IMG/VR virus record: IMGVR_UViG_3300034012_000932
Location: 1-35,323 of that record
Length of the DNA stretch: 35,323 nucleotides
Strand: one strand, 5' to 3'
DNA from: a virus
The position numbers and the translations under genes are program-made. The notes below the pieces were generated by a model. It had not been told where the DNA came from. It saw only the letters and a list, made by a program, of their open reading frames with translations, and did no database searches. Of the stretch, positions 1,485 to 34,497 are shown piece by piece. Each line of letters opens with the position of its first letter. Position 1 is the first letter of the stretch.

Positions 1485-1656
1485 GAAGGGTCAGGGATTC
1501 TTCGTCCCTGCCCTGGACCTAGAGGCCGTGCGACAGGCGGGACTGCTGGCTGCAGTCCCGCTTCACATCAAGGATGCCCGCGCCCAGTTCGGTATCAGGC
1601 AAGGGCGGCTTGGGGTGTACTTCTACCGGATCGATTTACGTCGCGCCAGTCGCTAG
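1453..1656 (+). CDS. Small conserved phage protein (67 aa) following the DUF927 gene
   Basis: This 67-residue protein begins inside the last 32 bases of the DUF927 gene, an overlap typical of coupled phage genes. The N-terminus (YPWDRLEKGQGFFVPALD) looks like a small protein often found beside phage replication genes, where an aromatic and basic start is followed by a short helix and a basic C-terminal strand. No catalytic motif is visible and the function is unknown. It is a plausible accessory of the neighbouring ATPase. Its last 21 bases overlap the 3' end of the giant minus-strand gene. An alternative is that the ORF is fortuitous, but the conserved-looking start and its position argue against this. 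Confidence 0.65.
   Translation: MLRHYPWDRLEKGQGFFVPALDLEAVRQAGLLAAVPLHIKDARAQFGIRQGRLGVYFYRIDLRRASR
1535..1563. repeat. Strong hairpin in the convergent gene junction
   Basis: A perfect 9-bp inverted repeat (GCGGGACTG, 7-nt loop, CAGTCCCGC) lies at 1537-1561 and extends to 1535-1563 with one G-T and one A-T pair. It sits inside the 67-residue plus-strand gene and about 73 bp past the stop of the giant minus-strand gene. Neither strand has a U-run after it, so it is not a classical intrinsic terminator. It could stabilise or define a 3' end of the minus-strand transcript. Confidence 0.45.
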
Positions 1657-4600: not shown

Positions 4601-7600
4601 TTGGCTCGAAGCTGTGCGTCGGTAAGCCGGTCCTCAGGCATGCGCAGCACGCGCTCGACTGCAGCGTGGGTGCCCTCATGCAGGAACGTGCGCTCGTTCA
4701 AGCCGTACTTCTTGTCCAGGCGAATGAAGGAGCCATCGACCGCCGCTTGGCCGTAGGCAGCAGCGCCATCGGGATCACGCAGGTCATCAACCAACTCCAT
4801 GCGCGTGTTGCCCAGCAACAGCTTGAGCCGCTGCCCGATGGCGCGGTTGAGTTCGGTGCTGCCGTTCTCCGCCACGTTGGCTGCGACTGCCGCAGCACTG
4901 TCCTCAGTGTCCACGGGCTCCTTCAGTGCAGGGCCTTGGGATGCGGTGGCAGCAAGCTGTTCGAGCGTTTCGGTAGCCGCATCAATATCAGGCGTTTTAA
5001 TCTTTTTTAGATCTTTGGAAAGTGCATCGATCTCGGTTTGTAGCTTTCCCTTTTCCGTTTCAAGTTGCTGTTTTGCAGACTGCTGTTTGTCAGACAGCGT
5101 TTTAGCACCCGCAACAACGGGGCCATTTTTGTTTGCCTCAATAAAAGCCAGTTGGGATTCAACGTCATTTAACCTAGCGCGTTTAGTGGCAAACCGCGCT
5201 AGCGTGCTGGTGCCCGCAGAACGGATCTGCTCTTGCACCGTTTCTGCAAACTCTTTTCTTGACTTCACTTGCGGCAAACCAAGCGACTCGGCTTCTTCTG
5301 CGCTTACACCAAACAAAGACGCTATTGTTGGCTGTACGCCGCCCACTTCTTCTAGCTCTTCGGCTTCAAACGTCGCTCGTTCTTTTGCATAAGCCCTTTC
5401 CGTGCGCTCTTCGCTGGTATCTTCTTCGATAGCCGCTTCTTCTACCTCTTCTTTTGCCTTACCTTTGGACGGACTGCGACTCAGGTTGTACTGGTCCAGC
5501 ACCATCTGCTCGATCTCAGTCAACGGCTCCTTCTTCGCCTTCTTGTCCTTGGCTTGGTTAACGATTGTCAGGATGGCCTGCTCTTCGCGCTGCTGCGGCG
5601 TCATGGGCTGACGCAACATGGTGCGCTGCTCAGCTTGCTCTCGCGCTGCATCCTCGGTGATCGTCGTGTCCTGCCCCACGCCCTTGCCGGTGTAGCGTGT
5701 CTTCTGGGACTTGCGGGCTTTCTCGATCTGCGTCTTGGTGGTTTCGGTGGCGTCAATCTCTGGTGACTCTGCGCGTGTGGCAGCTTCCTGCGTGTACTGC
5801 GCCAGCCGCTCAGCCTCTTGTGCCTGCTTCTGCTGTGCGGTCATTCGCACGGTAGGTGTCGGCACAGTGGCGGTCTCGACCGCTCCTCGGTTGATGCGGT
5901 CTTGCAGCCACGCTTCCTTGCGCAACATTTCGGCAAGCTGAGTCTGGAACCCGAGCACGCCCTTGGGCATGACCCGCGCAGCCATCGCGTTGGTGACTGC
6001 ATCCCTGTACGCTTCCTCCAACTTGCGCAGGGTTGGCTCAAATTTGGCACGCCCCTCCGCACTCGTGATGCGGTTGTACGCCGCTAGCGCGTTTTCGTAG
6101 GGCTTGCGCTCCTTGACCCCTTCGACGGTGAACCGACGAGCGCGATCCAACGCCTCCTGTAGCTGTTTGGTGAGGTCCGTTATGCGTGACTTGTACCCCT
6201 TGAGCACCTGCTGCGGGTTGCCCTTGATCTGCCGCATTTCGTCGGCCAGGATCGTCGGCGTCGGGTCTTCCTTGGCAAGGCGCTGTGCAGCCGTGATAGC
6301 TGGGTAGGTCGTGGCCTGAAGCGGTCGCCCTTCCGCATCCACACCCTCAGGCGCTGACTGCGCCCGCTCCAGGCGGGCTTGCTCGGCCTTGAGCTTTTCT
6401 GCGCTGGCAGTACGGCGCTCTTCACGGTCCACCGCGTCACGTTGGCGCTTGCGTGCGGCCTCTTCTGCGGTCAGCTTGGTCTCGGTTCGCGAGACGAGCG
6501 CCTTCAGTTTGTTGACTTCTCGCTGCGCTGTGCGCACATCCTTGCTGGCTGCAGCCAGCATCGTCGCATCAGGCTCGGCGCGGTCTGCGTAATCGGACAT
6601 GCGCTGCGACGCGTCTTCCAAACGGATGTTGGCGTCGATGTAGGCCAAGCGGGCGTCAATTTCTTGTATCTGCTTTTGCAGCGCTATCTCATCGGCGTTG
6701 ACCGCATTGACCATCTCGTTCAGGAGGGCCTTGTCCTGCTCAGAGATGTTGGCCTGCTGGATAACACTCAGGCGTGCATCCCGCGCCGGATTGCGCTCAC
6801 GCTCCAATGCTTCCAAAGCACCTTTTAGTTCTGCTTGAGTCGTCACCTTCTTGAGCACGCCGCCTGCTTCGCGCAGCATGACCTCATACTGGTCGAACGA
6901 TGCACGGCCTCGCTTCTTCAGCAACGCACGGGCTCCCTTGAGCTTGGCGGTCTGCTCATCAGCAGCACTGAGGAAGCTGCGCAGCGCGTCGATACGCGCT
7001 GATACGCCGGGGAACGCCGCTTCTCCCAACGTAGTGGTCTCGCGTCCCTGGATGAGCGTCTCAAGCTTTGAAAGCTCTTTGCGGGCCGCGTTCAAGCGCG
7101 GGATAGGGAAGACCTTATCGCGGATCTCCGTGATCTCATCAATAACCCCTTGCAGGTAGTCCAGCGTCTTCTGAAGCTCCGCCATCCGCTCCTTGGACCG
7201 CTCCACCACACGCCCGGGGTCAGCGATGTCACGCAGGCGGTCTGCCGCTGCGCTCTTGAGGAAGCGCTGGAACTGCGCCGGGGTCTTGCGCTCGGTGACG
7301 ATCTTCTCTTGCTCTTCGGGGAACAACGCCTGTTGCCCTGCCTGAGTCTCGGCACGACCACGCTCCAGCCTGGAGATGATGGGCTCCAACTCCTCCTGCA
7401 TGGACAGCGGGAGTGCCTGAGCGCTGGGGCCACGGATGGTGTCACGCGAGATGTCTCTGCCCAGGCGCTTCTCTACGGCTGCGGTGCCTTCGACTTCCTT
7501 GCGCTCAGCAGGAGCGACTGCGGCCTCAAGCTCTTGCGGCGTGGCTTTGAACACGGCTGCTGCCGCGTCCCTGCGGCTCGCACCTTGAGCAAGTTTTTGT

Positions 7601-10476
7601 TGGAACAGAGCCTGACGTTTTACATCATCCGGCGTCGCTGTAGTGGGGGCTTCTACGGCTGCGCGGCCTGTGGCCGGGAAAGCCTTCAGCATGGTCTCGC
7701 GCCCAGCACCGGGGCGGGCAACACCTTCTTGCTGCGTCTCGATACGACGAAGCTGTTCGTCGAGCGTTTGGTAGAGGCTTTGGGGCGCGGCCTGTCCTTC
7801 TGGGCGTGTGGCTTTTGGCTGTTGTACGCTTTCAATCGCATCAGTATCGACAAGCTTTTGTAGTACCTGCTCGTCCGTCTGAACCTCCTGCGCACCTAAA
7901 GTTAAGAACGGTTTTTCATTACCTTTACGAATACGTACATCTGAAACCGTGTTAGCAAGCCTAGTAGGCTGCACTGGCGTAGCAGTTTTAGCGCCTTTCT
8001 TTTTCTCAAGTACAACAGGACGGAAGATTTCAACCTGTACTTCCGTGCCGTCTGCTTGCCGTGCAGAGTACGAAATTTTGGCTTCTTTACCGCTACTTAC
8101 AGGTGTATAGCTTGGCGTGGTATCAGCAGTGGTGTATCCCACCCCCGGCTTCAAACCTTCAGTAGCCTCACGCCCCGGAGCCTGCACATCCTCCTTGGGC
8201 AGCACAGACTCGACACGGCTCAGGAAGTCATACGCGTCATCAGACAATCCCGGGGTTGCCTGCAACCGGGCAAGGCGTTCGCTCAGGCCCTCGTAGGTCA
8301 CCTCACGGGCAGCGGGCTCGGCTTCGCCAAACAGCTTGAACTCACCGGCCACACGCTGCTTGGGACCAACAGGCGTAGCGGGCCCCTTGCGAGGCATCGC
8401 TTGGCCTTCCTGGGCAAGATCAAACAGCTTGCGCTGGAGGTTCTTCTCCGCGTCGTCCTTGATCTTCTGCAGCTTGGCTAGGCGTGCTTCAGGCACTGTG
8501 GCGTCTTGCCCTGCCGCCTTGCGTGCTGCAATCAATTCCTCAGTGGCGCGGATGGCTTGGTTAGCACGGTCGATACGCTTAGTCTCGGGGGCCAACTGCA
8601 ACTGCTGCGCAACGTCGGTCAGTGCACGACTGGGCGCAGGTACACCCTCCGTGGGAGCCAGCGCCTCGAACGCTTGGGCAACGGCACGCTGCTGGTCGGA
8701 CTTCTCAACGATGTCCCCCATGCGCTGCTGGAAGCCTTCAACGCCTTGGCCGACCCGCTGCGTGGCTTCGAACGCGGCCTTGGCCTGCTGTTGCTGTGCA
8801 GTACGCTGCTGTGCCGCTGCGTCTGCTGCTTGCTGCTCTTTGAGCGCCTCGGCTTCTGCAGACTTTTGCTGCTTGTCGCGCTCTTTAAGTTGCAGCTTTA
8901 GGCCGCTGAGAATCGCGTTGCTCTCACGCTTCTTCAACCCGGGAATTGCCACATCACCTGCCACAAGCGCTTGCGCCATCGCAGGGTCTTGCATCAGATA
9001 CGCCACGTAGAACGAGGGGCGATCAGCCGAATCCATCGAATCAACAAACGCCTGTTCATTTGCGAGGTTGATTCGAGACTGCGCGTAGGCGACTGCTGGT
9101 GCTGGAGAGGGCGGTGGTGGCGCGAACGTCTCTTCCCCGGTGAACACACGCGGTTGCAGAGGTGTGAGGTCCACACCGGCCTGCTCCATCTGGTATTCCA
9201 GAGGCGATAGCCCTGCAATGCGCTGTTGTTCAGGAGTTAGAACGGGCGGCTTCGCCGCTGCGGCAGCAGCCGCTTCCTGCTCACGGATGGGCCGTAGGAC
9301 GCCCATGACCCGGTTGTACTCGGGCGCTTGCTCCTTAAGCTGCTCGGTCAGCGCCTTGCGACGCTCGATCAGATCCTTGTTGGCCTGCCTGTCTGCGAAG
9401 CTAGCCCCCTTGGGCAGCTTCTCCTTGAGCGTGGCAGTGAGGTCGTTGTACTCCTGCTGCAGCGCCTCGTGTGACTGGGCGAATTCCTGCGCGTACTCAG
9501 GGGACTGCTTGCGTGCTTCCTCGGCCTCCTCGGCAGCAAGCTGTGCGTTGCGCTTGGCCTTGGCTTGCTCCGCAGTTTGCCTTTGCAAGACATCTTGCGC
9601 TGCGGCTTGTTCACGCCCGCGTTCTGTATAACGTCCAGGCACCGCCAGTGCGCCGCCCAGGACGGCACCACCGAGGAAGCTCTCGAAGTACTCGTCCCGA
9701 GCCTTCTCGTCCGTGATGTTCAGTCCCGCCTGCAAGCGCTCGAACACCTGTTGTGCAGCTTCGGTTGTACCTTCGATGCCTGCGGTCTTGCCTGTTTTGA
9801 CGGTGTAGTCGATGAGCGTTCTCTTCAGGCCCTGCTCAGCGATCTCCTTGGCGTTCTCAGCCGTAATCTTGATGCCCGCCTGACCGAACAAACGCCCGAT
9901 GCCCGGGATCATCCGCATGGACAACGTATCCAGCGCAGCTTGTGGGATGGCCGCAGCAGCGGCGGAGCCCAGGCTGGTCTCACCCAGCGTCTTGCCCTCC
10001 TCCATCTGACGAGCGAGGTTGGTTGCCGTGAACTGACCAGCAGAGGTCAGACCGGCAGCACCGAGCGTAGTGAGCGCGGCAGCAGTGCCCGTCACGGGCA
10101 ACGTAGCAGCGGCAGCACCAGCGGCAAGGGGCGCGGCCATGTAGGGCACAGACCCGCCCAGCAACTCTTTGAACTTGGTGAACGGCGCTTCAGTCCAGCC
10201 CTCTTCGGTGGGCTTAAAGATCTCAGCCGCACGTTTCTTGGCCGCTTGGTACTCGGCCTCTGCCTTGGCTTCATCCTTGAGGCCTAGCTTGCCTGCAAGC
10301 GCAGACAGCCCACCACCTAGCTCGGTAGCACCGGCCTTGGCCGCAGCAATGAAGCCGCCTTCGGGTTTTGCCCCTACACCTAACTGACGGCGAATGATTG
10401 CCGCCGCCTCCTCCCTGGACACACTGTCCGGAAATTCAACGGTGCGCCCATCAGGAAGTGCGACGGTGTATGTCAT
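1636..10476 (-). CDS. Giant polyvalent virion protein (2946 aa) with zincin-like metallopeptidase motif
   Basis: At 2946 residues this one gene fills a quarter of the window. The N-terminus (TVALPDGRTVEFPDSVSREEA) resembles a small domain seen at the front of large phage virion proteins. An Ala/Gly-rich hydrophobic stretch follows at about residues 108-156, then long Ala/Gln/Glu/Lys-rich, probably coiled-coil regions to about 1830. A zinc-peptidase motif HEGTH lies at 1933-1937, and E1986 in LSEFASEAL is a plausible third ligand. Around 2425-2680 lies a helical region (RQIVRDSTQAF, IPFFNAQIQGLN) resembling large polyvalent protein-associated domains. Such proteins are thought to be packaged and ejected into the host with the DNA. 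The gene follows its neighbour by 6 bases with no clear ribosome-binding site, so translation may be coupled. Two segments, about 4985-5460 and 7850-8115, are clearly A+T-richer than the rest. Peptidase activity and ejection are inferences. Confidence 0.85.
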   Translation of the reverse strand: MTYTVALPDGRTVEFPDSVSREEAAAIIRRQLGVGAKPEGGFIAAAKAGATELGGGLSALAGKLGLKDEAKAEAEYQAAKKRAAEIFKPTEEGWTEAPFTKFKELLGGSVPYMAAPLAAGAAAATLPVTGTAAALTTLGAAGLTSAGQFTATNLARQMEEGKTLGETSLGSAAAAAIPQAALDTLSMRMIPGIGRLFGQAGIKITAENAKEIAEQGLKRTLIDYTVKTGKTAGIEGTTEAAQQVFERLQAGLNITDEKARDEYFESFLGGAVLGGALAVPGRYTERGREQAAAQDVLQRQTAEQAKAKRNAQLAAEEAEEARKQSPEYAQEFAQSHEALQQEYNDLTATLKEKLPKGASFADRQANKDLIERRKALTEQLKEQAPEYNRVMGVLRPIREQEAAAAAAAKPPVLTPEQQRIAGLSPLEYQMEQAGVDLTPLQPRVFTGEETFAPPPPSPAPAVAYAQSRINLANEQAFVDSMDSADRPSFYVAYLMQDPAMAQALVAGDVAIPGLKKRESNAILSGLKLQLKERDKQQKSAEAEALKEQQAADAAAQQRTAQQQQAKAAFEATQRVGQGVEGFQQRMGDIVEKSDQQRAVAQAFEALAPTEGVPAPSRALTDVAQQLQLAPETKRIDRANQAIRATEELIAARKAAGQDATVPEARLAKLQKIKDDAEKNLQRKLFDLAQEGQAMPRKGPATPVGPKQRVAGEFKLFGEAEPAAREVTYEGLSERLARLQATPGLSDDAYDFLSRVESVLPKEDVQAPGREATEGLKPGVGYTTADTTPSYTPVSSGKEAKISYSARQADGTEVQVEIFRPVVLEKKKGAKTATPVQPTRLANTVSDVRIRKGNEKPFLTLGAQEVQTDEQVLQKLVDTDAIESVQQPKATRPEGQAAPQSLYQTLDEQLRRIETQQEGVARPGAGRETMLKAFPATGRAAVEAPTTATPDDVKRQALFQQKLAQGASRRDAAAAVFKATPQELEAAVAPAERKEVEGTAAVEKRLGRDISRDTIRGPSAQALPLSMQEELEPIISRLERGRAETQAGQQALFPEEQEKIVTERKTPAQFQRFLKSAAADRLRDIADPGRVVERSKERMAELQKTLDYLQGVIDEITEIRDKVFPIPRLNAARKELSKLETLIQGRETTTLGEAAFPGVSARIDALRSFLSAADEQTAKLKGARALLKKRGRASFDQYEVMLREAGGVLKKVTTQAELKGALEALERERNPARDARLSVIQQANISEQDKALLNEMVNAVNADEIALQKQIQEIDARLAYIDANIRLEDASQRMSDYADRAEPDATMLAAASKDVRTAQREVNKLKALVSRTETKLTAEEAARKRQRDAVDREERRTASAEKLKAEQARLERAQSAPEGVDAEGRPLQATTYPAITAAQRLAKEDPTPTILADEMRQIKGNPQQVLKGYKSRITDLTKQLQEALDRARRFTVEGVKERKPYENALAAYNRITSAEGRAKFEPTLRKLEEAYRDAVTNAMAARVMPKGVLGFQTQLAEMLRKEAWLQDRINRGAVETATVPTPTVRMTAQQKQAQEAERLAQYTQEAATRAESPEIDATETTKTQIEKARKSQKTRYTGKGVGQDTTITEDAAREQAEQRTMLRQPMTPQQREEQAILTIVNQAKDKKAKKEPLTEIEQMVLDQYNLSRSPSKGKAKEEVEEAAIEEDTSEERTERAYAKERATFEAEELEEVGGVQPTIASLFGVSAEEAESLGLPQVKSRKEFAETVQEQIRSAGTSTLARFATKRARLNDVESQLAFIEANKNGPVVAGAKTLSDKQQSAKQQLETEKGKLQTEIDALSKDLKKIKTPDIDAATETLEQLAATASQGPALKEPVDTEDSAAAVAANVAENGSTELNRAIGQRLKLLLGNTRMELVDDLRDPDGAAAYGQAAVDGSFIRLDKKYGLNERTFLHEGTHAAVERVLRMPEDRLTDAQLRAKRELEELFEAYKKLPNASNENAKTSLSEFASEALSDDVMQAEMRQQKWTLRHMWDTFKSLILDMLGVKTPANMLDATLASVDNLMTRVPRATAQDMSLLGPKVLNRPRGLNPELAEADAVARRVVAGNRSWWQGVKANSTGLGFETQVIDRFAGFERLRKYLPKLQGTQMMSYLRMYDQRMNFVSQSAGNGALDLLEIQRKDGEREFIIESQDGTSLRSVVITLKRATPMVGDANATSRLFTLYVAANRAKRVGYDKLDMSGQVTEQELRQVLQKVDSVPGLKDIFETARDQYNEYNEGLVRFAQKTGVFSKDYADKLLSAKDYIPWYRSRNGVVELVIGGEAPFKVGNVKDMPHLAELVGGDKPILDFTISSIQNTNMLVDMSLRNLATKNAVMELVDLGAAKVTNKPISGTDVVKFRVKGEDRYAILDTETIKVNGKDVNTGVPADLLVKGMEGIPVQLTGALRMMAMPTTILRKAITLMPPYMLRQIVRDSTQAFIASGADITPVLGALREIGSAAGKKLEKRGIVGGQMFTGTTEDISLIMRDMLQGGNLLNVGMGKLEALGMEADALTRRAQYNSYLKQGMSEMEATLLALESMNFNKRGASPSIHFANSMIPFFNAQIQGLNVLYRAMFGQITAAEKARIKQKLITRGMMMFAISLAYTHAMQDDEAYKNALPEDKYGNWFVRIPGVAEPLRVPIPFELGYIFKALPEALYNILVPKNYDNAAEGGNTAANAAARAASEQDAAAQAFKAILRNTVPGGSSYFIPQVFKPGIEVASNFSFFTGRDIVSAKEQLLLPQYQYRDQTTELAKLFGGAGISPIKFEALIRGYLGGAGMAVLAALSLPLVREGPEKATKRLSDMPVVGTMFQPNDARWIINNTFDQLREAQQVQASFKDLVNKGERAEAKQLLETRATDYARAELGGYLRQQMGELTQMETAIKASNKSPDEKREILNKIQQYRIRLASMTREASDAAKLQQLATGAT

Positions 10477-20740: not shown

Positions 20741-22327
20741 TCACCAAGAGTAGATGCGGGCGTAGCCTGCGCCGCCGGTGCCACCGGCACCGGAGTTAAA
20801 GCCGTTGAGGGAAGCGCCTCCGCCAGCACCACCGCCGCCACCAGCACCGCCAGCGCCGCCTGCACCGCCTGCTGCCACATCTGATCCCCCGCCCCCGCCG
20901 CCGCCGCTTCCAGAGCCTGCTGTGTTTTGCGCCCCTGCGGTTCCTGCTGCTCCAACAGCTCCACCGGATGCGCCGCCGCCTTGGTTATAGGACTGCGTTT
21001 GTCCACCAGCGGCTCCCCCCACCGCTGTACCGCTGGTTACACCACCACCGCCCGCGCCGCCTGCACCGCCGAAAATCGAACCCGCCCCCGGTTGCCCACT
21101 GGCACCCCCGCTGACATTGGTTCGCCCACCACCACCGCCGCCCCATTCAGCCGACCCTGCCGACAACCCGGACCTACCTCCCAAACCGCCGCCACCTCCG
21201 ACGCTGCTTTCTTGTCCGGATGTTGCAGCGCCAAAACTGTTTGTTTGCGGAGTCCCGCCAAGAACACCACTGCCGGCGCCGCCAGACCCACCGCCGCTGC
21301 CGCCGTTTACACCACTTGTCGAACCGCCTTGGCCGTCGCTTCCACCGTATGCGGTAAGCACAGAGCCAAAAGTAGTGTCTCCACCTGCGCTGCCCGCGTT
21401 GCCGTTCGTGTCGTTTGTTGTTTGCGCTGCGCCGCCTGAGCCACCTGCGCCGATGGTGACGGTGTATGACGCCGCCAAATCGGATGCGCGATACATCTGA
21501 AAGACACGCGCACCACCACCCCCGCCGCCGCCTCCTGATCTATCGGTGCTGCCCCTTCGCCCACTCCCACCACCCCCACCCGCACCCCAAAGCTCTACCA
21601 TCACGAACACTGCGCCGGAAGGCTTTGTCCAAGTGCCGGAGGATGAGAAGACTTGGAGGTTGGCCGAACCAACAGGCGGGGCTGCAGACTGCCAAGTCGT
21701 TCCGTTGCTGGTCAGCAAATTCCCCGATGCTCCGGGAGCAACCGCTTGGAAAGTTGACGTACCGTTGCCCAGCAGGACGTTGTTGGCCGTGAAAGTACCC
21801 ACGCCCGTACCGCCGTTGGCTACAGGCAAAATGCCAGTGACGTTAGTTGTCAGTGAACAGTAGGTCGTAGACGTACTTCCAGTACCACCCGAAGCCACAG
21901 GCAACGCCGATCCAAGCGTCAGGGAAGCAAAGTAGTTCTGCGCCACCACAACGTCAGTGCCATCGCACCGAAGCGTCATCCGCGCACCGTTGGGTACAGA
22001 GATTCCAGAACCAGCAGAAGTCTTGACAGTCTGAGCAGCGCCCGTGCTGTTGGTCACAAAATACAGCTTGCTGACCGCAGGAACAATGACGTTGTACGAA
22101 CCGCCCGGAGTCCCGCTCAGCACGAGGAACATGGCCCGTGCTTCATCCGATGCACCGTTGTTGTTAGACAGCGTGTAGTTTGCCGCCGTCATCGTGATCG
22201 TGGCGGTCCCCGCGATAGAAGCATCTACCAGCGCTGTCAGGCCGGTGTTGACCTGCGTGCCCCAAGTTCCAGAGTATTCCCCGGTAGAAGGCTGGACCAG
22301 CCGAAGGCTTGTGGTGTATGAAGCCAT
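20741..22327 (-). CDS. Tail fibre / receptor-binding protein with polyglycine tip domain (528 aa)
   Basis: The N-terminal part (TTSLRLVQPSTGEYSGTWG) resembles a virion-attachment domain of tail-fibre proteins. Between about residues 140 and 215 are repeat motifs (LPVASGGTGSTS, LPVANGGTGVGTF) typical of trimeric phage fibre shafts. From about residue 223 (LQVFSSSGTW, then VELWGAGGGGGSG) the protein is a Gly-rich domain with about ten polyglycine runs separated by short variable loops. This resembles the polyglycine-sandwich tips of phage adhesins such as S16 gp38, in which the loops contact the host receptor. A GAGGT ribosome-binding site precedes the ATG. Receptor binding is inferred from this architecture. 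The C-terminal YARIYSW ending is typical of Gly-rich domains. Confidence 0.85.
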   Translation of the reverse strand: MASYTTSLRLVQPSTGEYSGTWGTQVNTGLTALVDASIAGTATITMTAANYTLSNNNGASDEARAMFLVLSGTPGGSYNVIVPAVSKLYFVTNSTGAAQTVKTSAGSGISVPNGARMTLRCDGTDVVVAQNYFASLTLGSALPVASGGTGSTSTTYCSLTTNVTGILPVANGGTGVGTFTANNVLLGNGTSTFQAVAPGASGNLLTSNGTTWQSAAPPVGSANLQVFSSSGTWTKPSGAVFVMVELWGAGGGGGSGRRGSTDRSGGGGGGGGARVFQMYRASDLAASYTVTIGAGGSGGAAQTTNDTNGNAGSAGGDTTFGSVLTAYGGSDGQGGSTSGVNGGSGGGSGGAGSGVLGGTPQTNSFGAATSGQESSVGGGGGLGGRSGLSAGSAEWGGGGGGRTNVSGGASGQPGAGSIFGGAGGAGGGGVTSGTAVGGAAGGQTQSYNQGGGASGGAVGAAGTAGAQNTAGSGSGGGGGGGSDVAAGGAGGAGGAGGGGGAGGGASLNGFNSGAGGTGGAGYARIYSW

Positions 22328-22334
22328 TTGAACC

Positions 22335-22856
22335 TCAGTTGACTATCTGCGTCCAGTTTGGACCTTGGACTGTTGGGACTTGAACCCACCCCGGAGCCTG
22401 AGCGTCTACAACCCCTGTCCAGTTTGGACCCTGCGCCGTAGAAACCATAGACCAACCCGGCGTTTGACTTGTTCCTGCCGCTGACCACCCCGGTGACTGG
22501 GCGTCTGATATCAGTTGCCAGTTAGGCGTTTGCCCAGATGGGATGGTAATCCAAGAGCCCGATGCCGTAAAGGAACTTTGCCAGTTTGGACTCTGCGTGC
22601 TCAGCACATCTGCCCAGCCCGGAGCTTGCGGTGTTGGAACATTGCCCCACGATGAAGCTTGTGTATTTACAACAATCTGCCAGTTCGGAACCTGCGTGTC
22701 ATCAATAATGTTCCACAGTGCCGTAGTGACAGAGACATTCCCAATGAAACCTTGGGCTTGAACTCCGGTGACTTGAACAATGACACTTGTACCAGAGGAA
22801 ACTGCTCCGTTGTAACTACCGAAGTAGCTGCCGAAGTAAGTGCCTGCGTAACTCAT
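22335..22856 (-). CDS. Tryptophan 11-residue repeat protein (173 aa)
   Basis: The N-terminus (YAGTYFGSYFGSYNGA) is a Tyr/Gly motif often seen at the front of small phage virion proteins. Residues 22-42 form a short Val-rich strand region. From W48 to W168 there are 12 tryptophans, 11 residues apart except for one 10-residue step, each in the frame W..V...Q.P(N/G)W. Such regularity suggests a beta-solenoid or stacked-hairpin rod. The gene overlaps the previous one by 4 bp (ATGA) and lies directly upstream of the Gly-rich fibre gene. It is probably a fibre or adhesin component. No homologous structure can be named from sequence alone. Confidence 0.75.
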   Translation of the reverse strand: MSYAGTYFGSYFGSYNGAVSSGTSVIVQVTGVQAQGFIGNVSVTTALWNIIDDTQVPNWQIVVNTQASSWGNVPTPQAPGWADVLSTQSPNWQSSFTASGSWITIPSGQTPNWQLISDAQSPGWSAAGTSQTPGWSMVSTAQGPNWTGVVDAQAPGWVQVPTVQGPNWTQIVN

Positions 22857-23725
22857 GCCGGGTTTACAGTTGTGACATCTCTTGTGCCTGTTGTGTAAGA
22901 AGCCTGCACTCGTGTCGTTGTCCCGTCCTGCGCTTTGAAGGTCATCGTGCCTCCTTCTAGACCTGTTGCATCACCCGCGTTTACCGCAAGCAATAGACGC
23001 AGCACATCCTTGACTGTCAGAGTGCCTTCCACAATCTCTAACAACGGATCTGTACCTGAGTTGTTCAGCAACTCGCCCATCGTGCCGGGGTCGTTGTACT
23101 GCGCTGCCAGGGCTTGCCACACTGCCGCTGCCAAATTTTGAGGAGACAACGTTGATTCGCCCGTGATGTCAGCCGACAACTCTCCAGTGGCGTAGGGGAC
23201 GAGAGTCAGCGTGCCTGTGCCTGACAGATCTGCTTGGACCGAAGCAATCGCTTCTAGAACGGCGGTGATGGCCCCCGCGCCGGTCAGGTCACCGGACAGG
23301 TTTAGCAGCGCCAGCAAATTTGGTGGGGGCGAAATGTCGCCCGCGCCAGTCAACGACGCAATCAGGTCGGCAATCAGCGACAGGAACGCATTGGTAACCG
23401 TGCCTGATCCCGTCAGATCCGCAGTAGCGTTTCTGGCCCCCGCCAAACTAGCGACGATGCTCCCCAAGCCATAGATCTGGTTGCTTGATCCGATTTGGCC
23501 CGCTTGTTGTGGGATGAACCATGTCAGGCTGGGATACGCACCGTTCGGCAGTGCGTAGTACTCAAGCGCCGTGGTGGTCCGATCCTGCATCATGCGGCTA
23601 CGCACACGACCTGATTGAGAAAAATTACCCCGGTTACCTGACTGAATAGCCGTGATAGCGCTGGACCCGCCGCCGTACTTCAGCGGCAGCTTGTCATAGA
23701 CGGAGTAATTGCCGATCAGAGCCAT
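22853..23725 (-). CDS. Tail-module protein with LTGxG repeats (290 aa)
   Basis: Residues 1-90 form a compact start (MALIGNYSVYDKLPLKYGGG) rich in aromatic residues. From about 90 to 205 there are five imperfect repeats of roughly 25 residues built around (A/S/G)(D/S)(L/I)(T/S)G(A/S/T/E)G, each with a hydrophobic helix between. The C-terminal segment (LAAAVWQALAAQYNDPGTMGELL) is a pattern I know from ends of phage tail or baseplate-region proteins, followed by a basic strand (TFKAQDGTTTRVQ). No enzymatic motif is seen. Position between the paralogous pair and the Trp-repeat protein supports a tail or adhesin-associated structural role. Confidence 0.7.
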   Translation of the reverse strand: MALIGNYSVYDKLPLKYGGGSSAITAIQSGNRGNFSQSGRVRSRMMQDRTTTALEYYALPNGAYPSLTWFIPQQAGQIGSSNQIYGLGSIVASLAGARNATADLTGSGTVTNAFLSLIADLIASLTGAGDISPPPNLLALLNLSGDLTGAGAITAVLEAIASVQADLSGTGTLTLVPYATGELSADITGESTLSPQNLAAAVWQALAAQYNDPGTMGELLNNSGTDPLLEIVEGTLTVKDVLRLLLAVNAGDATGLEGGTMTFKAQDGTTTRVQASYTTGTRDVTTVNPA

Positions 23726-23726
23726 G

Positions 23727-24848
23727 TTAGCCCCAAGCTACATCAATGCTGCCGTAGTAGGCGGTGTTGACAGGAGTAGCTGCGCCTGCGTACATCAACC
23801 ACTGCAAATTTGCACCGTCAAAAATTCTCGGCATTGACGGCAACTGATTCACCAAGTCACGCTCCGACGCCACACCAACCGTCGTCAACGGTATCGTCAA
23901 CAAAGGTTTACACAGTACAAGAACCAAACAACCCGACGTCATTGTGGCGGACAGGCTGATGGACTGGACTGACAAAATGCCCGTGTCACCAGCCGCAAGG
24001 GGGAGGAAGGGTCCGTACTTGCCCGCGCCCGTACCGGAATAGATGACCGACCCCACCGGAGATGTGGTGGTGGCAGTTGGCAAAACCGGGGTTGCAGGCG
24101 TCAATCGACCTGATGTACTCCCCACGTTTGTGTAGCTAAGCTGGATTGTCGGCGTGCCAGCACCCATCACAACAGAGGGCACGATATACGCCTGTAGGCC
24201 CGCACCCGTTGCATAACGTGGCAGCGTCTGTGTACCCGTAAACGACTGAGCGCCTGTTGTGGTGACAGAAGAAATGGTAAACATCGCCACCTGATCTATC
24301 AGCATCAGAACGGCTGGTGAGCTGGTCGCTGCGGCTGAGTAGGCCGATATGTTCAGGATGTTCTTGACAGACGGCGAGACATCGCCCCCCGTGTACAAAC
24401 CGTTGGTGGCAGAGGTGCCTGTGATGGTCTGCGAAGTGACCGTCTGAGAAACGCTGACGGTGTAAGTACCGCCGTTGTTTGCGCCTGTGCCCGTACCCAG
24501 CGCGGTGATAAACGTGCCCGCCGAAACACCTGTGCCGGTCAACTGCATGCCGATTGTGAATCGACCCGTGCCGTGCGTGGTGTCGGTAAACGTGGTGCCC
24601 GAGATGCTGCCGCTTGTCGCCGCCGTTGTTGCGGTTGTGGTCGTGGTGGCCGACAGCGATTGGAACGCTAGGTTCGTCGTAGACCCGTGCGTCGAGTTCT
24701 GAAACGGATTGCCCGCGCCGACTGAGAGGTCATACCAAACACCTGCCGTTTGCGCGGTTGTTGGCAGCGCGTTTTTGTTCCAATCCGTGCGGTTGAACTG
24801 CCCTGCGGTGATCGCAGAGATGATCTGATCCATTGACTGCAGCGGCAT
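23727..24848 (-). CDS. Tail-module structural protein, larger paralogue (373 aa)
   Basis: This protein and its upstream neighbour (24852-25733) are paralogues. They share W(Y/F)D(L/V)...GNP near the start and L(A)PGDTGI.SVQS, L(V)LV.KPL and Y.G(S/T)I...WG near the end. The copy here is 80 residues longer. The excess corresponds to an inserted Thr/Gly-rich module at about residues 66-146 with [19 protein letters not shown] and YTVS.SQTV.S.TI motifs. I recognise this as a mobile module widespread in phage tail proteins. It is Thr-rich and beta-type throughout. A role as a tail or virion surface component is inferred from context. Confidence 0.75.
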
Positions 24849-24851
24849 GCT

Positions 24852-25733
24852 TTACCCCCAAACGGTTTGAATTGTGCCTATGTATGAGGCTTGGCTTGAA
24901 GCGGATTGCCCAGTGTTCAGCAATATTGACAGATAAGCATTGTCTGCAATCACTGGCAAATCAAAAAAATCTATGGCGGGGGTGCGCTCACCTGCTTGCG
25001 CAACCTCACGCAAAATGATCTGCTCTAGCGGCTTGACCAACACAAACGCAAGCAATCCAATGTCCGGCGTGTCAAATGTTACGCTCTGAACACTTCTGAT
25101 CCCTGTATCCCCTGGAGCCAGAGTAAGAAATGGGTAGTTACTGTTTAGTCGTGCAGCCGCTGCGTTGTTGCCGGTTACCAATGCGCCAGTAATGGTCGCT
25201 GACCCACAAGTTTGTGTGGGCGATGTTTTAAGCACACCGCTCTGATTGATGTATGTAAACCGGAATGTTGGACCCCCAATACCCAGCATACCTGCCAACT
25301 GAACCGCCATGACACTCACGCCTTGCCCATCCGTATAGCGTGTCAAACTTGCCGTGTTGTCAAGCACCTGTTCGTCAGTAATACCTGTGTCTACAAACGG
25401 GTAATAGAACAGGTAATCCATCAGGATCATCGGACCCGTTGCCACACCTGTTATTGATATTGGGACTACTGTCAGTGTTTTTAAGTATGTCTTGTACCCC
25501 AAACTTGCTACAGGAGGGTTGTGCGGTATCCCGCCATTTGCTGCTTGCCCAATTGGAGCGCCAACAAGTGGCGTAGAGGCGTAGTAAAAAGGAAGCGGAT
25601 TACCAGGGCTCAAAGTCACATCAAACCAAGCGCCAGCACCTGTGGTCTGGTTGATTGCCTTACGAAAGCCGCCAAAAAACGTCTGCCCGTTCTGTTCGGC
25701 GTCAACCAAATCTTTGAACGAGTTGATAGCCAT
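24852..25733 (-). CDS. Tail-module structural protein, shorter paralogue (293 aa)
   Basis: This 293-residue protein starts with a helix (INSFKDLVDAEQNGQTFFGGFRK) and then resembles the downstream 373-residue protein over its whole length, without the Thr/Gly-rich insert. Shared landmarks are AWFDVTLSPGNP, RFTYINQSG, LAPGDTGIRSVQSVTF, LAFVLVKPL and the end IGTIQTVWG. No enzymatic motif is visible. The pair probably arose by tandem duplication and could form a hetero-oligomeric ring or serve alternative adhesin positions, but this is speculative. It directly follows the small zinc-ribbon gene without spacing. Confidence 0.75.
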   Translation of the reverse strand: MAINSFKDLVDAEQNGQTFFGGFRKAINQTTGAGAWFDVTLSPGNPLPFYYASTPLVGAPIGQAANGGIPHNPPVASLGYKTYLKTLTVVPISITGVATGPMILMDYLFYYPFVDTGITDEQVLDNTASLTRYTDGQGVSVMAVQLAGMLGIGGPTFRFTYINQSGVLKTSPTQTCGSATITGALVTGNNAAAARLNSNYPFLTLAPGDTGIRSVQSVTFDTPDIGLLAFVLVKPLEQIILREVAQAGERTPAIDFFDLPVIADNAYLSILLNTGQSASSQASYIGTIQTVWG

Positions 25734-25904: not shown

Positions 25905-26336
25905 TCAAGTCTCCGTGACGGTCAGAGCCGAAGCATTGAACTGCGGTTGAATGCCTGACGCAACCGCCAGCGAACTGTTTAACGCGCCAGCGTACAGCAC
26001 GTTGCCCGCACCACTCGCAGCCGTACCAATCGCCACATGGGTTAGCGTAGCGCCCGTGGCACCGCACTGAGGAAACTGGATCAGCGCAGCGTTGACCGCC
26101 GTGTTTGTTGAAACCGTCCAGCCTCCCGAAGTTCGCACAACCGCAATCCGGGTGTAGTTTGTGTACGAAGTCTCGTTGGTGGTCTGGTTGTTGCCGGTGC
26201 CCGGATCAGCCGTATACAAGCCAACGTACAGATTTGTGTACGGCGACGAAGCGGCGTTATCCGCCATGTTCGCCCAAGGCGTCGCGTTGAAGATCAGCTT
26301 CAGCAGGTTGTTGCAGGTGGTTATTGACTTTGCCAT
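25905..26336 (-). CDS. Phage tail-fibre-type protein (143 aa)
   Basis: This protein resembles a family often annotated as phage tail fibre or tail protein. It has a short helical start (NNLLKLIFNATPWANMADNA), then LYVGLYTADPGTGNNQTTNE, YTRIAVVRTSGGW, and a beta-rich C-terminal part (LTHVAIGTAASGAGNVLYAG). The whole is compact and probably all-beta after residue 30. An AAGGAG ribosome-binding site stands 4-5 bases before the ATG. It lies next to a similarly sized protein (26346-26768) of comparable beta architecture. The location in the virion is not deducible from sequence. Confidence 0.75.
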   Translation of the reverse strand: MAKSITTCNNLLKLIFNATPWANMADNAASSPYTNLYVGLYTADPGTGNNQTTNETSYTNYTRIAVVRTSGGWTVSTNTAVNAALIQFPQCGATGATLTHVAIGTAASGAGNVLYAGALNSSLAVASGIQPQFNASALTVTET

Positions 26337-26345
26337 GCTGGCTCC

Positions 26346-26768
26346 TTACGAAATACGAATGATTGCGTTGGTTGCATCTGCAACAGGGAACTGGACGGTA
26401 AACGTACTACTAGAGGAGGACTTATCCTGCCCAAAGTCCAGCACCGCGACAGATTTATTTCCCTTGCTGAAGTTGTATATCAACGCTCCTCGGGCCGTGA
26501 TGGTCGCAGAGGTAAATGAGATATTGTCAAACGTCACCCAAGCGGTAGTGCCAGAACTTGCCACTGTTACGCCTGTCAGCGCCCCGCCACCAGCAACGTA
26601 TGACCCGCTTGCGGCTACTTCGTTGGTCGAGGAATAGACCGTGGTCGCAGCGCCTAGATCCGCAGCAGAAGTGTACAAGGCAAGTTTGAATGTGTCCGTA
26701 CCAAAAACCTGAGTGCCCGTGAATAGCTCCGCCTTGAAGCTGGTGGTCATCGTCTGAACAATCGCCAT
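26346..26768 (-). CDS. Conserved phage structural-region protein (140 aa)
   Basis: This 140-residue beta-rich protein belongs to a widespread environmental-phage family that I recognise by MTTSFKAELFTG, TFKLALYTSAADLGA and the end QFPVADATNAIIRIS. The pattern of VYSSTNEVAASGSYVAGGGAL followed by TITARGALIYN suggests a small jelly-roll or tail-tube-like fold. The function has not been demonstrated to my knowledge. It sits between the adaptor candidate and the 143-residue protein in the neck-to-tail part of the operon, and its ATG follows the previous stop directly. Tail or decoration protein is the inference. Confidence 0.75.
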   Translation of the reverse strand: MAIVQTMTTSFKAELFTGTQVFGTDTFKLALYTSAADLGAATTVYSSTNEVAASGSYVAGGGALTGVTVASSGTTAWVTFDNISFTSATITARGALIYNFSKGNKSVAVLDFGQDKSSSSSTFTVQFPVADATNAIIRIS

Positions 26769-27425
26769 TTAGATCACCTGCGTTCTGAGTTGGCCGCTGC
26801 GGTATGCGTCTTGACGGTTCTTGCCGTCGCCCAGGTTCTTCAGCAATGTCAGTGATTGAACGTATTCTTTGTCCATCATCTGCATGATGTCAGGCTCTTG
26901 CTTCATAAACCGTGCTGCTTCCAGCATCACTGCGTTAAACAGTACAGAGTCAAAATTGTCACCCAGCCAAGACGTACCCGCAGTCACAATGCTGACCGGG
27001 TAGTAGAAGTAGTGCAGTTCTGCCGTCAACCCAGCAGAAGGAGTAGGACCGAGGATGAAGGTCAACTCCGTTAAATTTGACGAGTCAGGGCCGAAGAGAG
27101 CGTAATACTTTGGAGTTCCTGTCGTGCTGGGGTTTGGGAACGCCGAGCGGATGAAGTTCACATCCTTGTTCAGCAGATACTCGTAGTTCCCCAGAGCATC
27201 AATGACCGCGATGCTGAACACAGACAAGAAATCTGTCGGTGCCGAGAGGTACTGATTCCCGCTGGTCAGCGTGCCCGTGACGTTCTTGCGCAGCGCAGGA
27301 AGCTGCACAGAGTTGTAGATGCGCTGCTCTGCCAACTGCGTGAGCGTGGCGAAGTCTGTCGAAGAGAACGTGTTTTCAGTACTGTCCTCGACGGCAGTCT
27401 GAAGCTGCGCATACGTCAATGCCAC
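26769..27425 (-). CDS. Head-tail adaptor candidate, GTG start (218 aa)
   Basis: The protein from GTG at 27425 begins VALTYAQLQTAVEDSTENTF and continues through LAEQRIYNSVQLPALRKNVTG, FLSVFSIAVI and a C-terminal helical part (FMKQEPDIMQMMDKEYVQSL). This matches the family I know as phage adaptor proteins (SU10 adaptor type), which join portal and tail. GTG is preferred to the in-frame ATG at 27488: the protein then starts in the family's usual MALTYAQ form, the extension would lie inside the preceding gene, and GAGGT precedes GTG by 8-9 bases. Together with the protein at 28191-28886 it probably forms the neck. Assignment is by family resemblance. Confidence 0.75.
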   Translation of the reverse strand: MALTYAQLQTAVEDSTENTFSSTDFATLTQLAEQRIYNSVQLPALRKNVTGTLTSGNQYLSAPTDFLSVFSIAVIDALGNYEYLLNKDVNFIRSAFPNPSTTGTPKYYALFGPDSSNLTELTFILGPTPSAGLTAELHYFYYPVSIVTAGTSWLGDNFDSVLFNAVMLEAARFMKQEPDIMQMMDKEYVQSLTLLKNLGDGKNRQDAYRSGQLRTQVI

Positions 27426-27435
27426 GATCAGTACC

Positions 27436-27627
27436 TCACGCCATCGGCCCGCGAGACATGAAGCCCCGCGTAGCAGCACCGGACCCACGCTGCTTGATGC
27501 CCGTGGTCTTGGCCGCAGGAGCAGGGTGCTTGGAGATGTTGCCCAGCACCATGCACAGATCCCGAGGGTTCTCAGCCTCTTGCGGGTATGCCTGCTTGGC
27601 AGGGGGGAGTTGCTTGATCTTGCCCAT
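27436..27627 (-). CDS. Small basic phage protein with RG-rich tail (63 aa)
   Basis: This 63-residue protein has a Pro/Lys-rich start (MGKIKQLPPAKQAYPQEAENPRD), a short helix (LCMVLGNISKH) and a basic Gly/Arg tail (GIKQRGSGAATRGFMSRGPMA). I recognise this type of small protein from environmental phage structural clusters. The tail recalls the GG/RG-motif tails of nearby genes. It overlaps nothing, with a TGAAAC spacer from the previous stop to its ATG and 10 bp to the next start. No function is known. DNA-binding or packaging-related roles are possible because of the charge. Confidence 0.65.
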   Translation of the reverse strand: MGKIKQLPPAKQAYPQEAENPRDLCMVLGNISKHPAPAAKTTGIKQRGSGAATRGFMSRGPMA

Positions 27628-27801: not shown

Positions 27802-28194
27802 TTAGGAAACGGATACTGTGACTGTACCTACTAAACCACTTGGTGCCAAGGCATTTGGCGTCAAGGCGGCATCAAAACTTCTGGACCCACCCACAGGGTT
27901 CCAGCCCCACTCAATCACCCGGCTACCCTCGCCGATAGTCCCGATGGCAGTTTGTCCCGAGGCGTACCAAGTGTTCGTATCTGGGCGGGGATCGCGGATG
28001 GCCTGGGGGTCGCTGACTGGGTACATCCCGAGTTGCAACTGTGGTTGATCTGGGGTCCAACAAGCCGTACAGGCACGAATCTGCGTTTGCTTGGTTTTGA
28101 CTACGAGGTTCTTGAGCTTTTTGAGGTCGAAACGGAACCCGCAGACATCGCAGAAACCAAATGCCTTTGCGCCGTTTGCAAAGCGGTTGCTCAT
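27802..28194 (-). CDS. Zinc-finger-like phage structural-region protein (130 aa)
   Basis: The first half holds two Cys pairs (FCDVCGFRF and ACTACWTPDQP) about 30 residues apart with a Lys-rich segment between, which is a likely treble-clef or zinc-ribbon site. The second half carries DPQAIRDPRPD, then GWNPVGGSRSF and a beta-rich end. I recognise this as a family of conserved environmental-phage proteins near neck genes. The start overlaps the preceding adaptor-like gene by 4 bp (ATGA), so the two are probably co-translated. Zinc binding and a role in neck assembly are inferred. Confidence 0.7.
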   Translation of the reverse strand: MSNRFANGAKAFGFCDVCGFRFDLKKLKNLVVKTKQTQIRACTACWTPDQPQLQLGMYPVSDPQAIRDPRPDTNTWYASGQTAIGTIGEGSRVIEWGWNPVGGSRSFDAALTPNALAPSGLVGTVTVSVS

Positions 28195-28886
28195 GATATG
28201 AAATACTGCCTTGGTGTGAAGCGAACAGCGGCCTTCTCGCGGTCCTCGGAACTGGCAAGATCCCAGTCCTGATCGTATTGCGCCTTCAGCACCTGCATTC
28301 GCTCCATCGCACCGGGGATCTTCATGGACAGGTAATACGCCAGTCCTGACACCAAAGCGGGGATAAACCTGAACGGTACATCTTGTGTGTACGTCCCGCC
28401 CGCACCAGCGTCCTGAATCCTGCGAAGCCGCCAGTAGACAAGCGTGTACGTCTGAGAATTGTCAGGCGTGGGCCACACGGTGAACTGCGGCGCTGCTGCT
28501 TGGCGGTTGATCCAAATTTGGATCGGCCTTGCAGACTGGAGTTTGTTCGGGATGGACGAGTAGGTAGAAACTGAGATGCGCGTGATGGTCAGATCAGTCT
28601 GCGTGGAGACATTTCCTGCGCCCGTACGAATCACGTGCTCAATCAGATCCACCGTATCGGCGGGCAGCGTGTAGGTGTTTGTGCCAGCGGTCAGGACTTG
28701 TGAGCCTTGTTCGATGCACCACATGTTTATGCCGCGATTCGACCAATCTGCGAACAACAAATTTAACGACCGTCGTGCTGTCCTCAGGTCATAACCTGTG
28801 CGCAACTCAGCACCACAGCGCTCAAAGGCTTCCTCGACGTACTCATTGAGGTCGAGATTAAACGTAGCGGTGCCGGATGTGGTCAT
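28191..28886 (-). CDS. Neck / head-tail connector-like protein (231 aa)
   Basis: This 231-residue protein has helical start motifs (LDLNEYVEEAFERCGAEL, then ARRSLNLLFADWSNRGINMW) and a beta-rich middle (NTYTLPADTVDLIEHV, QFTVWPTPDNSQTYTLVYW). It ends in FIPALVSGLAYYLSMKIPGA. This is a pattern I recognise from conserved proteins annotated as tail tubular or head-tail joining in environmental podoviruses. Together with the protein at 26769-27425 it may build the connector below the portal. Its stop overlaps the next gene. The precise level in the neck is not deducible. The structural class is from resemblance. Confidence 0.7.
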   Translation of the reverse strand: MTTSGTATFNLDLNEYVEEAFERCGAELRTGYDLRTARRSLNLLFADWSNRGINMWCIEQGSQVLTAGTNTYTLPADTVDLIEHVIRTGAGNVSTQTDLTITRISVSTYSSIPNKLQSARPIQIWINRQAAAPQFTVWPTPDNSQTYTLVYWRLRRIQDAGAGGTYTQDVPFRFIPALVSGLAYYLSMKIPGAMERMQVLKAQYDQDWDLASSEDREKAAVRFTPRQYFIS

Positions 28887-33588: not shown

Positions 33589-34497
33589 TTAGGCTCCAGG
33601 GGAAGCGAACATTCCCAAAGGATCGCTGACGCCGAAAGAAAATCTTTCGCGCGCCTTGTACCGAGAGTTCCCGGTGTCGAAATCAGCGTCCATTGACGTA
33701 GCCAGCGGTACACGAACAAAGTGCTTCAGACCGTTGGGCACATCCGTCTTCAAGAACCAAGCGTTGGTGTCGGTCAAGAAGTGGTTGACGGTGTAGCCTT
33801 CCGGGATGGAGCCGTTGTTCTTCAGCGCGTTGATGTCGTTGTCGGTGGTGCCGACACGCAGCGACGTTTCCAGCAGTCGGGTTGCGACGAACTGGAGTTG
33901 CGGAGGAACGATCAGCTTGCGGGGCTTGGCAGCGATCAGCAGACCACGTTCGTCGGTCCAACCAGCGATCTGGATCACAGCCGCTTCGAGGGACGTTTCG
34001 TTCAGGTCAGCCGCCGTCGCAGGACGGTTGCTGTTGGTGCCGCCAGAAACCAGCGGGTGAGCCGTCGAGAACAGGGCTTGGCCGTCACCGTAGGTGAATG
34101 CCGAGTTGAAGCCGTTGTTCAGGATGGACGCCGCCTTGACCTGCTTGGTGTAAGCCATAGCCCGTGCGAGGGACTTGGTGTACCGGGCAGACAGACTGTC
34201 GTACAGGTTGTCTTCCATCGCCTCTTCGGTGATGGAGAAACCCATAGCGATGGTCTCGTGGTTGTAACGAGCGGTCCAGGCTTCCTGCGCATTGTCATAC
34301 GCGATGGCCGAGCCTTCGTTCTTCACCGGGGCGGCGGAGAAACCAGCGAGCTTGGTCTCTTCTTCAAACGAGCGCTCGGAGGTCTCCGTTTCGTAGATCT
34401 CCTTATGCTCTTCACCGTAGGTCTTGTACTCCATGCCAAACAGAGCGTTCAGCCCAGGCAGGAGTTCCTTCAGTAGTTGGGCACGTGAAATTGCCAT
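33589..34497 (-). CDS. Major capsid protein (Mu gpT-like, HK97 fold expected)
   Basis: The 302-residue protein has the features of gpT-like major head proteins. It starts with a helix (ISRAQLLKELLPGLNALFG), then EIYETETSERSFEEETKLAG, a helical core region (ETIAMGFSITEEAMEDNLYD, KSLARAMAYTKQVKAASILN), TSLEAAVIQIAGWTDERGLL and the ending SFGVSDPLGMFASPGA. I recognise this pattern from Mu-like gpT-type major capsid proteins of environmental phages. It assembles the icosahedral head. An AAGGAG ribosome site (7 bases before ATG) is present, and the gene is followed by its own terminator. This is one of the best-supported genes in the window. Confidence 0.93.
   Translation of the reverse strand: MAISRAQLLKELLPGLNALFGMEYKTYGEEHKEIYETETSERSFEEETKLAGFSAAPVKNEGSAIAYDNAQEAWTARYNHETIAMGFSITEEAMEDNLYDSLSARYTKSLARAMAYTKQVKAASILNNGFNSAFTYGDGQALFSTAHPLVSGGTNSNRPATAADLNETSLEAAVIQIAGWTDERGLLIAAKPRKLIVPPQLQFVATRLLETSLRVGTTDNDINALKNNGSIPEGYTVNHFLTDTNAWFLKTDVPNGLKHFVRVPLATSMDADFDTGNSRYKARERFSFGVSDPLGMFASPGA

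Follow-up and report, generated by a model that had tools for sequence, protein, structure and literature searches.

The mismatch in symmetry between the 12-fold or 6-fold rings of phage tails and the fibres of few chains attached to them is an old question of phage structure. A fixed total of repeats that is reached with different numbers of chains is known from the beta-propeller lectins and from the barrel of TolC (3 x 4 strands). Repeats of Trp or Phe at 11 residues are known within the long tape measure protein of long-tailed phages. In podophage GP4, fibre I reportedly consists of gp80 dimer beads threaded on a rope protein. In SU10, the adaptor is a dodecamer in which the fibre-dock domains are not alike in adjacent subunits, and Trp839, Trp847 and Trp857 of the nozzle form a quasi-threefold star which binds a trimeric short fibre, with a clamped segment before each Trp (PMC9509320). 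Other mismatches in such tails are reported in a preprint on DEV (PMC10925440).

The window, which is the whole viral stretch of 35,323 nucleotides analysed here, encodes on its minus strand a protein of 173 residues (22335-22856, whole ORF) with seven full-length viral relatives of 84-100% identity. This W-array protein starts with an aromatic and Gly segment (residues 1-16, MSYAGTYFGSYFGSYN; 22809-22856, minus strand), probably the counterpart, by position and composition, of the GWGxGxWG segment of its relatives. A single 22-residue repeat of the shaft type, assigned by eye, follows (residues 26-47, containing VTGVQAQGFIGNVSV; 22716-22781, minus strand), and the rest of the protein is a Trp array of 12 units with the consensus W-x-x-[IV]-x-x-x-Q-x-P-x (residues 48-173; 22338-22715, minus strand). 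The Trp residues stand at positions 48, 59, 70, 81, 92, 102, 113, 124, 135, 146, 157 and 168, with steps of 11, 11, 11, 11, 10, 11, 11, 11, 11, 11 and 11 (ten of 11 and one of 10), and these ten equal steps compare with a maximum of 6 in 100,000 shuffles of the protein for any period from 5 to 24. The positions and the shuffles bear out the original prediction of 12 Trp at an 11-residue period from W48 to W168 with one 10-residue step. The predicted span, 22355-22715, extends between the first coding bases of W168 and W48, and the ORF is larger. Self-identity of the residues, calculated from residue 46, was 0.31, 0.32 and 0.24 at lags 11, 22 and 33 and at most 0.14 at the remaining lags from 3 to 39. 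Of the 11 units, 10 have Gln at W-4 and 9 have Pro at W-2; the 10-residue unit between the fifth and sixth Trp (QSSFTASGSW; 22551-22580, minus strand) has neither at the usual place, and it is kept in 7/7 close loci. The predicted 33-bp period holds as a coding period but not as a DNA repeat. Since ten 33-nt units of the array are only 30-67% identical in pairwise nucleotide comparison and Tandem Repeats Finder (score 30) reported no array inside 22338-22715, a young tandem repeat at the DNA level is absent from the window array. A short 12-bp repeat was reported by the same program at 22812-22844, in the N-terminal part of the ORF.

The gene set of the window resembles that of a short-tailed phage, and this morphotype is therefore the probable one. 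The six genes listed next lie on the minus strand. Directly downstream of the W-array gene is the gene for a tail fibre-like protein of 528 residues (20741-22327; PF21722, phrog_863), which has an N-terminal TGEYSGTWGTQVNTGL motif and a Gly-rich part. Upstream are a homologue of the podophage GP4 fibre I protein gp80 (25905-26336; PF23140, PDB 8jou), g140 (26346-26768; phrog_644), whose homologues occur in many W-array loci, a homologue of the tail adaptor (26769-27488; PF24175 SU10_adaptor, E 1e-19), a second adaptor homologue (28191-28886; PF24175, E 1.9e-12), and the major capsid protein (33589-34497; phrog_371, PF25209). The likeness of the window to GP4 fibre I lies in the gp80 homologue (PF23140) and the two adaptor homologues. 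The gp80 homologue adjoins g140 and is similar to it in length and pattern by eye, and the two may be paralogous beads. The W-array gene and the gp80-like gene are separated by three genes for proteins of 290, 373 and 293 residues (22853-25733). Among the 318 loci counted below, homologues of these genes were confined to seven: five with twelve units, namely L607 and four loci of the window lineage, and two with six units (L018 and L460).

A protein search with the window protein gave 11 viral loci, including the seven full-length ones. These seven close loci have all 12 Trp and the 10-residue step at the identical place, and they comprise four distinct arrays, one of which is identical to that of the window. 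The DNA pattern of two successive W-x6-Q-x-P-x-W units matched at least 120 viral stretches; all 120 listed had a coding array, and 115 of them passed a filter that asked for Ile, Val or Leu at W-8 and a short distance to the stop. Searched in bacterial and archaeal genomes, the same pattern matched at least 120 stretches, with a coding array in 86 of the 120 listed, and 6 passed the filter; among the matches listed, three of the latter (L161, L196 and L248) look genuine by reading. The W array is thus mostly viral among the matches listed. In 433 units from 126 distinct loci, Gln was found at W-4 in 419 and Pro at W-2 in 378, both of which belonged to the search pattern, and Ile or Val at W-8 in 409. 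A GWGxGxWG or FGxxxFxxxPF segment opens many of the relatives, many contain 22-residue repeats (VTGVxATGxVGxVxV), and the array ends few residues before the stop. The array is the C-terminal module in a family of proteins that is widespread among phages and encoded in their tail regions, and the expectation of such a protein with the 11-residue period kept among relatives was supported.

A fibre-type motif, (S)GTWGxxxN, searched as (G/N)(T/S)WGxx(x)(N/D), was found near the start of the downstream frame in 105 of 134 array loci, close relatives and repeats included, and 98 of these 105 frames open within 60 nt of the stop of the array. The remaining loci comprise 12 with a looser variant, at least 9 of which resemble the same fibre by eye, 10 with less than 300 bases of room and 7 without the motif. 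The motif matches at L031 and L109 were discarded as false. Phage DSL-LC04 is a cultured relative with four units (n=4); weaker cultured relatives are pelagiphage HTVC023P, with three Trp at 11 residues and without Gln, and HTVC027P, with two Trp at irregular spacing. In all three, the gene after the array gene carries the fibre motif. The 22-residue shaft repeats are also present in roseophages CRP-901 and CRP-902, there on a different N-terminal protein (L682, 1973-2917; L685, 2452-3378), which ends with GWGxxxWGxGTWG, without a Trp array, and adjoins a gene annotated as tail adaptor.

The number of Trp per array (n) was counted in the viral loci sampled as Trp in register with steps of 10-12; values of n from 2 upwards were covered. 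The count filter required half of the units to have Gln or Glu at W-4, Gln being present at least once, and half to have Ile, Val or Leu at W+3; it further required at most 20 residues to the stop, an ORF of at least 40 residues and a stricter end for n=2, and kept one array per locus. It dropped some rows, including L021, and L575 was entered as six. Among the matches listed there were 388 array loci, 329 of them distinct and 318 of these complete. The 318 distinct complete arrays, again among the matches listed, had 2 units in 51 cases, 3 in 43, 4 in 72, 6 in 111, 10 in one, 11 in six and 12 in 34; values of 5, 7, 8 and 9 and all values above 12 were absent. A chain therefore has a number of units that divides 12 in 311 of 318 arrays, as does the window protein with its 12. 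The 11 distinct arrays that run into a contig end include two with 5 visible units, one with 10 and one with 11. Because the loci were pooled from relatives, from scans for at least 3, at least 5 and at least 7 Trp and from a scan for the C-terminal end only, whose biases differ, the relative sizes of the classes mean little and it is the missing values that count. The scan for at least seven Trp that required Gln in four of six units was a complete listing, all other pattern scans being read among the matches listed. It gave 79 stretches, of which 49 were distinct; two were unrelated and 47 genuine by reading, namely 37 twelves, 7 elevens, 1 ten and 2 sixes. A scan without the Gln requirement, anchored at the stop, matched 127 sampled loci (108 distinct) and provided 62 complete new arrays among the matches listed. 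One was an artefact (L696), and the 61 genuine ones were 57 sixes, 2 twelves, 1 eleven (L739) and 1 five (L716). Clustering at 70% array identity left 17, 30, 41, 83 and 21 clusters for n = 2, 3, 4, 6 and 12, and at 55% identity 3, 4, 5, 21 and 17; with only 3, 4 and 5 clusters at 55%, independence is limited for n = 2, 3 and 4. Within the samples, the rule that the common values are the divisors of 12 is strong.

The strict exceptions are L424 with 10 units, L593 and L739 with 11, and L561, also with 11, whose relatives L748 and L757 have 12. L021, the ten of the scan for at least seven Trp, has 10 units, an insertion and two more Trp. The elevens L547, L551, L564 and L610 form one lineage in which the twelfth slot is present without Trp, and in L595 the array is cut by the contig end. 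The five (L716) has Tyr in the first of six slots, and L567 is a six-unit array which was matched via a TGG beyond its stop. In L575 an in-frame TAG divides a 12-unit array into 6 + 6, lying precisely at the border of units 6 and 7; L590 and L617 have the same sequence as L575 in the 1500 bases compared around the array, so that the three count as one virus. Recoding of TAG as Gln in these loci was rejected, since the upstream frame is closed by all three stop codons and reading TAG as Gln lengthens few frames. Counts of 5, 7, 10 and 14 obtained under a looser rule were false and came from extension over Tyr or Phe, contig ends and an insertion. Some loci have two W-array genes, with 6 + 4 units in L319, 3 + 3 in L128 and 2 + 2 in L479 and L537.

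Two controls were compared with these counts. The 22-residue shaft repeats of the same proteins, counted with a repeat HMM, range from 0 to 62 per chain without gaps of the divisor kind; a tie between their number and n was considered, and no relation was seen. A pattern for at least seven Trp gave 132 distinct arrays in the viral loci sampled, 85 of them outside the W-array class. Four of these were Glu variants of the W array with 6 Trp, and the other 81 were unrelated 11-residue Trp arrays, which we take to be mostly of tape-measure look. The unrelated arrays have 7 to 37 Trp without quantisation, some being possibly cut by contig ends. Numbers of 7-9 Trp were found in 28 of the 58 controls with 7-12 Trp and in none of 41 W arrays (Fisher p 9e-9, relatedness ignored), whereas exactly 12 Trp were found in 15 of the 58 controls and 34 of the 41 W arrays (p 2e-8, relatedness ignored). 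Arrays of the tape-measure type thus share with the W array the 11-residue period, but they have hardly any Gln at W-4, are mostly far from the C-terminus and are not quantised. A tape measure protein was rejected as the identity of the window protein in view of the C-terminal position of the array, its Gln/Pro units, the length of 173 residues and the SU10-type adaptor genes.

The arrays also show how they change. With arrays of odd steps excluded, similarity at lag 2 is higher than at lag 1 in 25 of 28 twelve-unit arrays (reverse in 3) and in 68 of 110 six-unit arrays (reverse in 36). In six-unit arrays the internal even slots favour N-W-Q-N and the odd slots G-W-S, and odd and even slots differ at W-1 (p 8e-20, relatedness ignored); in twelve-unit arrays Gln at W+1 favours even slots, and Asn/Gly at W-1 does not alternate. 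Pairs of units with at least 90% DNA identity lie two units apart in 5 twelve-unit arrays, 8 six-unit arrays and the ten-unit array, and at lag 1 in 4 six-unit arrays. These sequences suggest that recent growth was mainly by two units, which would lead via 8 and 10, values hardly seen. That arrays are found at 12 despite such growth is most simply read as selection on the total. The 16 loci whose capsid protein is 83-89% identical to that of the window have n = 2 (1 locus), 4 (2), 6 (12) and 12 (1). On a FastTree tree of the adaptor and g140 proteins from 211 loci, with two elevens entered as twelves, n needs at least 86 changes, compared with 107-125 in 100 shuffles of the labels, so that n follows lineage only loosely.

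Since the Trp counts are divisors of 12, it can be proposed that 12 units complete one assembly. The most far-reaching reading, to which we give a probability of roughly 0.42, is a divisor rule in which one 12-unit Trp ring of the tail would be built from 6, 4, 3, 2 or 1 chains depending on the phage, the length of the array would encode the oligomeric state, and evolution would move between divisors while tail genes and capsid stay unchanged; the window would represent the single-chain ring. Our main proposal, that the W-array protein is a component of the tail appendage or adaptor whose C-terminal array gives a fixed total of 12 units, stands in our view at even odds. It builds on the C-terminal position of the array, its period of 11, its linkage to genes for the tail adaptor and fibre, and the restricted numbers of units. 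In such an assembly, 12/n chains (6, 4, 3, 2 or 1) would join to supply 12 equivalent units, all of them on one chain in the window, and the units might form a closed ring of 12 short strands among themselves or occupy one site each in a dodecameric ring, for example the tail adaptor. The shared assembly would thereby resolve the mismatch of chain number and ring symmetry. The two alternating flavours of units (NWQN and GWS types) would suit a ring with six-fold pairs, and also an adaptor ring of the SU10 type, because neighbouring adaptor subunits differ in their docks there. Most likely, the W-array protein would serve as the tail anchor of the fibre whose gene follows. The counts make a 12-unit ring a good candidate, with a putative stoichiometry of 12/n chains; candidate partners of the array remain the adaptor, the downstream fibre, and the g140 or gp80-like beads. 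Several observations speak against a 12-unit assembly: n=3 does not fit an alternation by two units, the classes from n=2 to n=12 share N-terminal types so that the same shaft would be present in 6, 4, 3, 2 or 1 copies, loci with two genes (6 + 4, and equal-n pairs in three others) are not predicted, strict exceptions with 10 or 11 units exist, and the array is poorly modelled and gave no credible match in the PDB. The beta-propeller lectins and TolC are parallels in principle, from which the W array differs in that all divisors of 12 from 2 to 12 occur in one family. If the divisor rule is true, the stoichiometry of chains could be read from sequence alone across a widespread family of uncultivated phages, with a sharp prediction for each n, and the arrays may serve as natural blocks for closed rings of any divisor number.

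Other explanations fit parts of these data. The original prediction had the array as a rod whose fibre length could be tuned by recombination between 33-bp repeats. It was right in that the repeat number differs between related phages, but the number is not free, being 2, 3, 4, 6 or 12 in all but seven of the arrays counted; the proposed survey of related phages accordingly found the period kept and the number quantised rather than kept. Free variation is contradicted by these quantised counts, by the 12 Trp of all close loci and by the window array being without a repeat at the DNA level, which makes a tuned rod very improbable, and this reading is superseded by that of a quantised array. Considerably more weight, although still on the unlikely side, can be given to a dock in which three Trp motifs plug one trimeric downstream fibre, so that 3, 6 and 12 units would hold 1, 2 and 4 fibres. 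The SU10 nozzle, whose Trp839, Trp847 and Trp857 hold a trimeric fibre, is the precedent (PMC9509320), and the frame with the fibre motif downstream of 105 of 134 arrays, 98 times within 60 nt, also speaks for it. The SU10 dock loop is like the W array in having serial Trp on one chain, clamped segments and a tail with a dodecameric adaptor, but it has three Trp in a nozzle loop, spaced by 8 and 10, whereas the W array is on a separate protein with 2-12 Trp spaced by 11. The 12 Trp of the window agree with a multiple of three as in an SU10-type dock; however, 123 of the 318 arrays (n=2 or n=4) do not, n=9 is absent, and a profile of the fibre matched no phage protein among the PDB sequences. 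Its best match there, a fungal protease at E 0.022, was taken as chance.

Little probability is assigned to an elongated rope protein that threads dimeric beads (gp80-like or g140) with two units per dimer, as reportedly in GP4 fibre I, 12 units holding six dimers. The window has the gp80 homologue, loci with n = 2, 3, 4, 6, 11 and 12 include some with a homologue of g140, and the tendency of the units to pairwise alternation would fit. However, no more than 5 of the 318 loci counted, all of them fragments, had a homologue of the gp80-like protein of the window, n=3 would correspond to 1.5 dimers, and a rope would permit 8 and 10. Similarly placed is frozen ancestry, in which present arrays would descend from a small set of ancestral lengths that recombination has shuffled and the missing lengths would be due to chance. 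The loose dependence of n on lineage and the few clusters for n = 2-4 at 55% identity are what it would lead one to expect, but the 21 twelve-unit and 83 six-unit clusters at 70% identity and the recent duplications point to repeated origin, and intermediate lengths are missing.

Predicted structures and family searches were consulted as well. The AlphaFold monomer of the window protein is poor (pLDDT 52.6, pTM 0.13), perhaps because mostly six-unit rows were aligned to the twelve-unit query, and it neither shows a rod nor demonstrates disorder. In the monomer predicted for a relative (L130), the shaft forms regular strands with block means mostly of 71-87 from residue 31 to 180, and the array has block means of 53-63 and no regular structure. 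Foldseek with the model of this relative gave no match in the PDB at E 0.001, and its three BFVD matches that reached E 0.001 were all from uncultured Caudovirales phages, two of them uncharacterised and one named glycine-rich domain-containing. The window protein had no significant match in Pfam or PHROG (best E 0.15 and 0.18), profile searches of PDB sequences found no credible match, and the Spt5 CTD (PF12815) did not match the window protein up to E 1. A match of this domain to one of nine relatives scanned (L130; 35.1 over 25.4 bits) was taken as chance among repeats of the TPxW type, and one of PDB chain 5il7 to the L130 shaft (E 0.0025) as similarity of repeats. The matches of phrog_8501 to L020 (1.3e-6) and phrog_18723 to L009 (1.9e-5) are weak and lie outside the array. 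A literature search found no paper on the W array, which is weak evidence since subscription papers were largely outside its scope.

Two large proteins were noted in addition. One ORF of 2946 residues (window 1636-10476, minus strand) had no PHROG match at E 0.01 and is perhaps a large internal virion protein. In L593, a protein of 1265 residues has many GWNxxxxxWGxxGWGxG segments alternating with short repeats, followed by its 11-unit Trp array.
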